Assembly (NCBI RefSeq): GCF_030163795.1
Contig: NZ_JASJOF010000002.1
Coordinates: 62,001 to 126,000 of the forward strand
DNA length: 64,000 bases
Reading direction: 5' to 3'
Source of the DNA: Roseicyclus marinus
GTDB lineage: Bacteria > Pseudomonadota > Alphaproteobacteria > Rhodobacterales > Rhodobacteraceae
The notes beneath the pieces were generated by a model that ran no database searches, had not been told where the DNA came from, and saw only the letters and a list, made by a program, of their open reading frames with translations. Below, in pieces: positions 6,935 to 9,764 of the stretch. Made by a program: the position numbers and the translations under genes. Each line of letters starts with the position of its first letter. Within the stretch, counting starts at the first letter, position 1.

Positions 6935-8191
6935 ATGACCACCACCCATTCTATCGCGCCGACCTTGCTGGTCGCCATCGACATTTCCAAGCATCGCCAT
7001 GAAGTGCTGATCGGCATCCCGGGCAAAACACGCCGCCGACGCTTGACGGTCACGAACACTCTACCAGACTTCGAGCGGCTGTGCTTAGCCCTCGCGAGTT
7101 ACGATCTGCCTGTTCGGATCGGGTTCGAGGCAACCGGCAACTATCACCGGCCGCTCGCCCATCATCTCGGCCGGGCAGGGTTCGAGCTGAAGCTCGTCTC
7201 CTCTGTCGGATTGGCGCGGACACGGGAGGCCCTGCACAATAGCTGGGACAAGAACGACCCGAAGGACGCCCAAGTCATCCTGCACATGCTGGAGATCGGC
7301 GCCGTGCAGTTCTTTCACGATCCGATGGTGGTCGGGACATCCGACATCCAGGAGCTGTCGAAGACCCATGAGATTGTGTCGCGATCGAAGACCGAGCTCT
7401 GGCACCGCATCCTAACCCACTACCTGCCGCTCTACTTTCCCGAGGCTGAGCGGTTTCATCGAAGCTCACGGACGGATTGGTTCCTTGCGTTCCTCGAGAA
7501 GTATCCATCGCCACATATGATCTCCGCCATGGACCGGGACGCCTTCATTGCTGATGCTTGGGATGTCGTCGGCCGGAAGGTCTCTAAAGAACGATTGCTT
7601 TCAGATATTTACGCAACAGCCGTTGGTTCGGTCGGGCTTCCCGTCCACCCGGACTCAGATGCGGTGCGCATGTTCCGCCTCGTTCTCGCAGAGGGCCGCA
7701 GCCTGGTCCGGCAGCGGGATCAGATTGAAGCGCGGGCGGTTGAGTTGCTGTCGGACATACCCGACTACCAGTTGCTGACGACCATCCCAGGCATCGGCCC
7801 GATCAACGCCATGACCATCCTCGCTGAGGCTGGCGATCTGCGCCGTTTCCGCCATCACCGCCAGTTCCTGAAGTTCTGCGGCATGGATCTCGCAACCGTC
7901 CAGTCCGGCATGTTCCGCGGGCAGAGCCGCATCTCGAAGTACGGCAATGCCCGGCTGCGGCGCACGCTCTGGATGGCCGGCCAGACCGCCGTTCTCAAGC
8001 GGACCAATAGCTTCCGCGACAAGTTCGAACGCTACATCTCTAAGGACCGAGACAATGCCCATCTGCGCCGCAAGGCCTATACCGCGATCGCGGCCAAGAT
8101 GGCGCGCACCGTACACGCCGTGGTCAATCATGGCGAACCCTATCGCCCCTTCTTCGAAGGGGTGAGCCCAGGCGGAAGGACCTCTCTCTGA
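6935..8191 (+). CDS. IS110/IS1111-family recombinase (DEDD transposase)
   Basis: A 418-residue intact protein. The N-terminal RuvC-like DEDD domain shows VAIDISK (first Asp), IGFEATGNYH (Glu) and the KNDPKDAQ Asp pair. The C-terminal Tnp_20 region shows LTTIPGIGPINAMTILAE and the serine-bearing stretch QSGMFRGQSRISKYGNARLRR. The family moves its element through a circular form with help from a bridge RNA encoded in the element. The ATG at 6935 follows GAGGAG at a good distance. Length fits the IS1111 subgroup, and there is no frameshift or internal stop. Confidence 0.93.
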   Translation: MTTTHSIAPTLLVAIDISKHRHEVLIGIPGKTRRRRLTVTNTLPDFERLCLALASYDLPVRIGFEATGNYHRPLAHHLGRAGFELKLVSSVGLARTREALHNSWDKNDPKDAQVILHMLEIGAVQFFHDPMVVGTSDIQELSKTHEIVSRSKTELWHRILTHYLPLYFPEAERFHRSSRTDWFLAFLEKYPSPHMISAMDRDAFIADAWDVVGRKVSKERLLSDIYATAVGSVGLPVHPDSDAVRMFRLVLAEGRSLVRQRDQIEARAVELLSDIPDYQLLTTIPGIGPINAMTILAEAGDLRRFRHHRQFLKFCGMDLATVQSGMFRGQSRISKYGNARLRRTLWMAGQTAVLKRTNSFRDKFERYISKDRDNAHLRRKAYTAIAAKMARTVHAVVNHGEPYRPFFEGVSPGGRTSL

Positions 8192-8425
8192 CGAGCCGTG
8201 GAGGCAGCTAACTGACCTCGTAGATAATGTTCGGGCCTTCTGCTTGGGATTTGGGATCTCGTATTAAGGACGGTGACGGCCGCCGCCGCGCGTACCCTGT
8301 GTTTGCTATGGAAGAGACCATTTCTTGACGGCAGAGCCCGTCTGGGCAACCTTAATAGGGCATCCGGGACACCGGATGTCCCATGACCTGCTGACCTAAG
8401 CAGCCAGATCTTCCCGACATAGGAC
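8192..8425 (+). ncRNA. Candidate bridge-RNA region of the IS1111 element (3' non-coding end)
   Basis: This stretch lies between the recombinase stop and the element end and codes for nothing evident. In IS1111-subgroup elements the bridge RNA is expected on the 3' side, and this is the longer non-coding end here. A strong hairpin is visible at 8358-8382 (GGGCATCCGG and CCGGATGTCCC around a GACA loop, one bulge). I did not fold the whole region and cannot prove loops that match donor and target, so the call rests on position, size and family knowledge. Confidence 0.35.
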
Positions 8426-8849
8426 GTTGTCGGACCTGATGTGGTCGGGGACGCCACGCAGGATGAACTGATCCGACAGAACGTCGATCACATCAGTGGA
8501 CCGTAGCCTTCGATCGATCCTGATCGCCAGGCATTCCCGGGTGAACTCGTCGAGTATGACAAGGATGCTATACGGTCGCCCGTCATGGGTTCGGTCCTGA
8601 ACGAAGTCGTAGGACCAGACATGGTTCGGCCGCTCCGGCCTGAGCCGGATGCAGGAGCCATCGTTCAGCCAGAGCCGGCTCCGCTTCTTCTGTTTTGGTG
8701 GGACCTTCAGCCCTTTGCGCTGCCAGATACGCTCGACCCTCTTGTGGTTCACGTGCCAGCCCGCCTGGTTCAGCAGCGCCGTCACCGGCCTGTAGCCGTA
8801 ACGGCCATATTGCGTCGCCAGTTCGATGATGTCTGCCGTCAGACGATCT

Positions 8850-9278
8850 TCATCCGGGCGGCCTCGCGGAACTTTGCGCTGTGTCGAGCGGTGCTGCCCG
8901 AGCGTGCGGCAGGCGCGGCGCTCCGATATGCCAAGCGTCTGCCGCACGCGGTCGATGCACTGCCTGCGGCGCGAAGGGCTCAGAAGTTTCGCTGCGCGGA
9001 CCTGCGGTTCCCCGCGCTGCCTCGGTCAGGATCAGCTTGTCGAGCGTCAGGTCCGAGACGGCACGCCTCAGTCGGGCATTCTCCTTCTCCAGCTCTTTTA
9101 GCCGCTTCAGCTGATCCCGGCTCATGCCGCCGTACTGGCGACGCAACCGATAGTACGTCTGCTGAGTCATACCGACCTGGCGCACCGCCTCCGCAACGCT
9201 CATGCCCTGACCCTGCAGCACTTCAACCTGCCTCAGCTTCATCACAATGTCTTCAGGCTTCTCTCGCTTCCCAGCCAT
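8850..9278 (-). CDS. IS3 orfA (HTH transposase subunit), C-terminus altered by a short insertion
   Basis: The start is ATG at 9278 (MAGKREKPEDIVMKLRQ). Residues 1-60 form the HTH_Tnp_1 helix-turn-helix (GMSVAEAVRQVGMTQQTYYR), followed by a leucine-zipper-like stretch (LKRLKELEKENARLRRAV). Relatives end soon after LTEAARG with a stop that overlaps the orfB frameshift signal. Here a 20-nt insertion at 8989-9008 moves the frame past that stop, so about 50 unrelated residues are added (142 in all). The DNA-binding part is intact, but frameshifting into orfB is probably lost. Confidence 0.75.
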   Translation of the reverse strand: MAGKREKPEDIVMKLRQVEVLQGQGMSVAEAVRQVGMTQQTYYRLRRQYGGMSRDQLKRLKELEKENARLRRAVSDLTLDKLILTEAARGTAGPRSETSEPFAPQAVHRPRAADAWHIGAPRLPHARAAPLDTAQSSARPPG

Positions 9279-9764
9279 CTCCTGGTCCTCCAATCTGAGG
9301 GGCAAATCTACCCCAGTTGGTGGACCACTTCAGTGGGGGCAATCCACCTACGACACTCGCAAATGCTACGATGCCATCGCTGACCGCGGCGCCCATGCCG
9401 TCATCCCGCCCCGCAAAAACGCCAAACCGTGGAAGACTGGCACCGCAGGAGCCATGGCCCGAAACGAGGCCCTGCGCGCAGCGAAATACCTTGGCGAGGC
9501 CCTCTGGCGACGATGGAGCGGATACCACCGCCGAAGCTGCGTCGAGACGAAAATGCACTGCGTGAACCGAAGGTCCGCCAAGCGAAACTTCTGGGCCAGC
9601 AGCTCATGGCGCGAGACTTTGATCGCCAGGTCGCCGAGCTTCATGTCCGTGTCGCCGTACTGAACGGCTACACCGCGCTCGGCATACCTGTCACAGAGGC
9701 CGCAGGATAAGTCTGTCCGGGGAAAGGGTAGCCCCGGCCGTCAGCCGATTTTTGCAACAGAGCC

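Follow-up and report, generated by a model that had tools for sequence, protein, structure and literature searches.

When the window, a stretch of 64,000 nucleotides from the draft genome of Roseicyclus marinus, was analysed, a decayed IS3-family element was found to end at approximately position 9346, where it adjoins the remnant of an IS5-family transposase gene (boundary read from the sequence). An open 418-aa frame beside this IS3/IS5 nest (6935-8191) presumably encodes an IS110-type transposase. Each of the two host elements contains a 20-nt insert (Table 1). Both inserts named in the original prediction were present, although copy 1 lies one position lower than first given. They share 17 of 20 bases, as had been claimed, and in both copies GAA stands before the insert, GAA forms its end and ACTTCTG follows. 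With up to 3 mismatches allowed, the window gave these two matches and no third, while dinucleotide shuffles of the window gave a mean of 0.12 matches, with two or more in 1 of 100 shuffles. The 22-nt word GGTCCGCNNAGCGAAACTTCTG had no further place in the 3.6-Mb draft genome of the same organism at 3 mismatches. That genome contained one full match only for each host IS, and the IS3 query gave an additional 90-nt match elsewhere on the contig with 93% identity.

Table 1. Positions of the two 20-nt copies, their left triplets, potential hairpins and host elements in the window
Feature	Position	Strand	Location or basis
20-nt element copy 1, CCGCAGGTCCGCGCAGCGAA	8988..9007	-	IS3 orfA/orfB junction; absent from two IS3 relatives
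20-nt element copy 2, CCGAAGGTCCGCCAAGCGAA	9567..9586	+	3' part of IS5 (ISPko1-like) transposase gene; absent from five IS5 relatives
Left target triplet GAA, copy 1 (GGGAA^AC)	9008..9010	-	Read from sequence
Left target triplet GAA, copy 2 (TGAA^AC)	9564..9566	+	Read from sequence
Potential mini-hairpin 1, copy 2: ACC-GAA-GGT	9566..9574	+	DNA fold, no better than shuffles
Potential mini-hairpin 2, copy 2: CGC-CAA-GCG	9576..9584	+	DNA fold, no better than shuffles
Copy 1 host: decayed IS3-family element	8396..9346	-	ORFs, relatives
Copy 2 host: 3' part of IS5-family (ISPko1-like) transposase gene	9347..9710	+	ORFs, relatives

The IS5 fragment was approximately 80-82% identical to ISPko1-like plasmid copies, and at the insert point it was exactly 20 nt longer than all five that were aligned. 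Three of these five read GTGAAACTG at the empty site, and the other two have CAA instead of GAA. The window IS3 copy was likewise 20 nt longer than two plasmid copies, from Rhodobacter xanthinilyticus and Ruegeria; in both of them GGGAAACTTCTGA continues uninterrupted. Since the IS5 and IS3 relatives lack exactly these 20 nt, as the original prediction had anticipated, both window inserts are true insertions. The best tree did not group the insert-bearing IS5 copies in a single clade (5 changes; AU p 0.033; 6 versus 15 rows, four rows dropped); its support is weak, and its starred branches alone are compatible with one origin.

A different insert was observed in two of the five IS5 relatives, both from Phaeobacter, 15 nt upstream of the 20-nt site. 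This second insert, approximately 41 nt long with the core GGCAGGGTYATGCGNAGCATGATCCCGAGAGG and likewise a GCGNAGC hairpin, was found in Phaeobacter and Pseudorhodobacter turbinis copies of IS5 (L273, L274, L290, L291) and at other sites (L294-L300, L302-L309, L311, L312). Its core was present within 2 mismatches in 18/394 family genomes compared to 2/394 for the backward pattern; the matches at L301 and L310 look like chance. In the same gene region, the IS5 copy of Sulfitobacter alexandrii (L289, within 101-483) carries tandem CGAGA pentamers.

Recurrence and insertion contexts of the 20-nt unit

GTDB species genomes were scanned with the exact pattern GAACCGNAGGTCNGCNNNGCGAA, whose middle triplet was left free (NNN) and served as an internal control. 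At least 118 stretches carried the pattern. Among the matches listed from species genomes, the free triplet was GNA in 95 of 123, against an expectation of 1 in 16. Of the 95, 89 came from Hyphomicrobiales (50) or Rhodobacterales (39). The 28 listed matches with other triplets were scattered as chance matches would be, 23 of them lying outside both orders or in unplaced genomes (Actinomycetes, Bacteroidia, Planctomycetes and others). With five matches in viral contigs, the matches listed came to 128, of which 100 had a GNA triplet. Within Mesorhizobium, exact copies were found in 33 of 61 genomes, with up to 14 per genome and 119 in total (table sum), compared to 0 of 61 for the backward pattern. 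When 2 mismatches were allowed in 20 carrier genomes, 118 matches were found compared to 23 for the backward pattern.

In the broad samples, loose matches gave no excess over the control. At 3 mismatches, 12/394 genomes of the family matched, compared to 21/394 for the backward pattern; five of the 12 were judged real from their flanks (G000, G306, G309, G325 and G386) and the other seven were judged to be chance. At 1 mismatch, 5/385 genomes of the class matched, compared to 11/385 backward, and a GAA-preceded unit was present only in the window's own genome. The signal is in the exact matches, and loose patterns are inseparable from chance in the broad family and class samples. G386 held 29 copies (L010 and 28 further places), and there a multicopy IS5-like element carries the unit; in L010 it lies 3' of the transposase stop codon. 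The same flanks were seen in L060, L067, L071, L114, L117, L130 and L131. This element has apparently been able to spread despite the insert.

Chosen non-palindrome contexts were translated after their flanks had been joined and were assessed by eye; a good part matched no recognised family. Others gave interrupted transposases that we assign, from motifs which we recognise in the joined flanks, to IS3-like (WSLD^FVHD, WVSD^FTYVATW, SRAIL^KWAD, L^KYECVYL), IS5-like (HCV^KLLGQ) and IS6-like (RRMR^ILQKF, HNQ^FNQERH) families. Inserts were present in both orientations relative to the interrupted genes (by eye), and the contexts share little beyond YGAA. Two or three units were seen in IS6-like genes of Methylobacterium and of Beijerinckiaceae MAGs (L051, L092, L158, L210, L212, L214), and in two L051 derivatives a single unit joins two sites, with the intervening DNA missing. 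A stop-free stretch of at least 150 codons was found at 88 of 106 sites with joined flanks versus 91 of 106 with unjoined flanks, and no coding effect was supported. The best codon-usage frames of the two sides shared a strand in 65 of 97 cases, and after removal of the unit 23 were in phase, with 17 and 25 in the other phases. The lack of a coding signal in both frame tests was put down to the GC-rich, decayed nature of the DNA.

In Mesorhizobium, an intergenic palindrome, GATCCCGAA^AAGT..., was found with units in its arms, and both arms can carry one; the inner length is 29 when empty and 49 when occupied. One locus (L362; G809:C1:394052-394228) has three units in a row, 77 nt apart, apparently as repeated palindromes. 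Another Mesorhizobium palindrome, with a GCGNAGC apex (AAAAGTGCGNAGCGGTTTT and similar), was observed in G398 (L230, L246, L250, L265, L266). The word GCGNAGC itself was not over-represented in Mesorhizobium (1117 versus 2194 for the reversed word), and its clustering was mostly chained coding sequence.

Orthologous loci were found both occupied and empty. At a 611-nt Mesorhizobium locus, L313, L314 and L315 carried the unit and L316 lacked it, and the pair L314/L316, which was 97.3% identical over 591 aligned nt, differed by exactly 20 nt. The more distant L313 and L315 hold a unit with an identical loop base. A precise loss from L316 is therefore no less likely than gains, and the L314/L316 difference may be a precise loss, not a gain. 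The occupied arm of L359 and L366, compared to the empty arm of L357, also differed by exactly 20 nt, with 89% identity over 2.5 kb, at a locus that we take to lie between ribosomal-protein genes. In a third comparison (L371 versus L368; 86% over 2.8 kb), one arm was occupied in one and empty in the other, with a gap of 21 nt in a diverged stretch.

These findings show that the unit has been gained or lost whole at unrelated sites. They agree with the suggestion, made from the window alone, of a very small target-specific mobile sequence: the unit recurs after GAA in unrelated sequences of Rhodobacterales and Hyphomicrobiales, and empty sites exist both in IS relatives and at orthologous loci. 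Both window inserts are, with a probability of roughly two in three, copies of a mobile DNA element that is very small (20 nt) and non-autonomous. Spread by recombination alone, that is, gene conversion of a unit of single origin among IS copies and palindromes combined with IS transfer, would account for same-site copies in related IS and for the fact that unit-bearing palindromes are repeated, but it has little probability given units in unrelated sequences that share scarcely more than the target, in both palindrome arms and at several sites of one IS6-like gene. Part of the spread within Mesorhizobium may nevertheless be that of palindromes already bearing the unit, as in the L362 array.

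Target, ends and fold of the unit

The consensus of the copies and their sites was YGAA^CCGNAGGTC(C/A)GCGNAGC(G/A)AA^WW. The left triplet, on which the pattern itself placed no demand, was GAA in 25 of 26 exact copies and 28 of 32 copies with up to 2 mismatches at program-chosen loci, in 13 of 15 copies from 798 kb of G398, and in 45 of 47 copies from 40 stretches chosen by hand out of the 118 matches. For the target tally GAA was required, which kept 88 of 106 copies in 45 context clusters. Over these clusters, position -4 was T in 22, C in 17, A in 4 and G in 2, position +1 was A in 30, T in 12, C in 3 and G in none, and position +2 was T in 24. The target YGAA^WW fits better than GAA/ACTTCTG, the target first proposed. 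Because other copies run into AAGT, ATCC, ATGG, ATAC, TTCG and other bases at this point, the ACTTCTG that follows both window copies is a coincidence. Location of the target within DNA hairpins was not supported, as the fold energy of 41 sites did not differ from that of nearby GAAW sites (p 0.57).

An element subtype ends in GCAAA after CCGAA at many sites, and by eye only about nine Mesorhizobium rows of the genus sample do not belong to it. Since the right end of this CAAA subtype seems to be part of the unit, a 3-nt target duplication is unlikely, and the original division of each insert into a 17-nt unit and a 3-nt duplication is not supported. A 2-nt AA duplication is possible. Terminal inverted repeats were not present in CCGNAGG...GCGAA (by reading), and, as target duplications of at least 3 nt are unsupported, the unit does not have the features of a MITE or of an IS remnant with inverted ends.

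The unit could fold as GA[ACC GNA GGT]C[CGC GNA GCG]AA, in which the second loop is CAA in window copy 2 and GNA in most copies. By nearest-neighbour energies this fold was no better than that of shuffles, the stems being only 3 bp. Among 70 copies from 20 genomes, found by a search in which the two loop bases were left free and up to 2 mismatches were allowed elsewhere, a base other than the commonest stood at the two loop middles in 17% and 44% of copies, and at the 18 other positions in 17 of 1260 cells (1.3%). This contrast between loop and stem is exaggerated, since the search freed the loop bases and limited mismatches elsewhere. The stems were nearly fixed and no compensatory pair was seen in the 70 copies; positions 10 and 18 covary as C/G or A/A, of which A/A is no standard pair. 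Loop-size variants (GTTA, GTCG) were also present.

A larger element at a YGAA site would be expected to carry CCGNAGG and GCGNAGCGAA at its opposite ends. A search of 798 kb of the Mesorhizobium tianshanense genome gave no half-units, with 1 and 0 matches for the reversed-word controls, and no full-length parent was found in this part of one genome. All 15 occurrences of GAACCGNAGGTC in the 798 kb of Mesorhizobium opened whole units, 12 of 20 nt, two of 21 nt and one longer variant, which speaks against the earlier idea that the inserts are footprints of a larger element. An excision scar of a larger transposon would suit the uniform length and the GAA on both sides; given that every left end in this one Mesorhizobium genome segment opens a whole unit, and that variable loop middles in a near-fixed remainder suit a replicating unit better, such an origin is very improbable.

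Possible routes of movement

Two candidate mobiliser families were searched for. Of 22 carrier genomes, only 3 had Y1_Tnp and only 7 had RVT_1, with none of the latter in the window's own genome; several of the carriers are drafts or MAGs. In nine loci and a 1.5-kb stretch of the window, no Rfam family of structured RNA matched across the inserts.

We infer that the unit moves as a folded DNA single strand with the help of a dedicated factor. The element would take a single-stranded form with two GNA mini-hairpins, and a trans-acting factor would recognise this form and join the 5' CCG of the element to a site ...YGAA, and the 3' end, ...CGAA or CAAA, to the next AT-rich base. Such joining would resemble left and right cleavage sites, with no target duplication of more than 2 nt. 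The element may persist where insertion has a low cost to the host, as in IS genes and intergenic palindromes, and the window IS3 and IS5 copies would be separate events, either here or before these IS copies arrived. A fuller version can be put forward tentatively, in which the unit consists of little more than two GNA mini-hairpins and, folded as single-stranded DNA, is moved to YGAA^WW sites by an uncharacterised alphaproteobacterial enzyme, the 41-nt element of Phaeobacter being a second family with related machinery.

The main rival is template switching at YGAA during replication, with no dedicated enzyme. A nascent strand at YGAA would jump to the YGAA left of another copy, copy the 20 nt ending in CGAA and jump back, and loss would occur by slippage between two GAA. 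The left GAA, the terminal GAA, the lack of duplication and the precise loss would all follow, as would the absence of a common transposase or reverse transcriptase in the two families tried. We regard this route as rather unlikely, since it leaves unexplained why this sequence is used and not any segment between GAA triplets, and why A or T is preferred after the target, and since the CAAA subtype, which has no right-hand match, is yet predominant among the Mesorhizobium rows. Movement through an RNA copy with a reverse transcriptase acting in trans, as proposed for the small dispersed repeats (SDRs) of cyanobacteria, which are similar in size and dispersal, appears unlikely: few carriers have RVT_1 and the window's genome has none, inserts occur in both orientations relative to the interrupted genes, and Rfam gave no match over the inserts in the sequences searched.

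Comparison with known systems

Mobile bypassing elements (byps) of Magnusiomyces mitochondria are tiny inserts in genes, with matched take-off and landing codons and a preserved gene product. The 20-nt unit differs in that it is also intergenic and shifts the reading frame, and identity with byps was rejected because the codons 20 nt apart are mismatched in the window (GUG versus GCG in IS5 and GGA versus CGA in IS3). REP/REPIN sequences mobilised by RAYT are, like the unit, short, dispersed and non-autonomous. Their tags are GTAG/CGTC, as named in the title of PMC3733652. The unit consensus has no such tag, the unit is found in genes as well as in intergenic DNA, and no Y1 protein was found in 19 of 22 carriers; a REP/REPIN assignment was therefore rejected.

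Elements of the IS200/IS605 family and their non-autonomous derivatives have a fixed short left target, a right end borne by the element and no target duplication. The unit resembles them in its fixed short left target, its right end within the element, its possible hairpins at both ends and its lack of a target duplication (2 nt still being possible). It differs in size, since their end hairpins are approximately 20-25 nt each according to the excerpts of PMC6006769, whereas the entire element here is 20 nt. A Y1 transposase was present in only the 3 of 22 carriers noted above (several being drafts or MAGs), in agreement with the excerpted statement that Y1 genes are few in Rhizobiales (PMC6006769). 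In the open-licence papers searched, the sequence words of the unit and of the palindromes were absent, and no alphaproteobacterial case of small dispersed repeats or kindred elements was found.

The SDRs of Nostoc described by Elhai and colleagues are reportedly 21-27 nt long and hairpin-forming. Our unit of 20 nt is likewise dispersed over many unrelated contexts, both inside single genomes and across genomes, with both occupied and empty orthologous sites. The Nostoc SDRs (Elhai et al. 2008, Genome Res. 18:1484) are cited in PMC4390886 and PMC3116915, and an excerpt of the former places SDR5 precisely between the third and fourth nucleotides of HIP1. Both are very small and dispersed over unrelated contexts, and the position of SDR5 within HIP1 is comparable to that of the unit after YGAA. 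Compared by description only, the unit differs in being a 20-nt sequence of Hyphomicrobiales and Rhodobacterales with another target and two potential GNA mini-hairpins.

The 20-nt unit would rank among the smallest known sequences that are mobile. Mobile elements of very small size, as described for cyanobacteria, are now extended to two large alphaproteobacterial orders, and the sharp target rule (YGAA^WW) together with the minimal unit makes the mobility of a 20-nt sequence testable. Because the unit interrupts transposase genes and sits between putative ribosomal-protein genes of Mesorhizobium, it is also relevant to annotation and to the decay of insertion sequences. In kind, the unit is near the cyanobacterial SDRs, from which it differs in host, target and structure.
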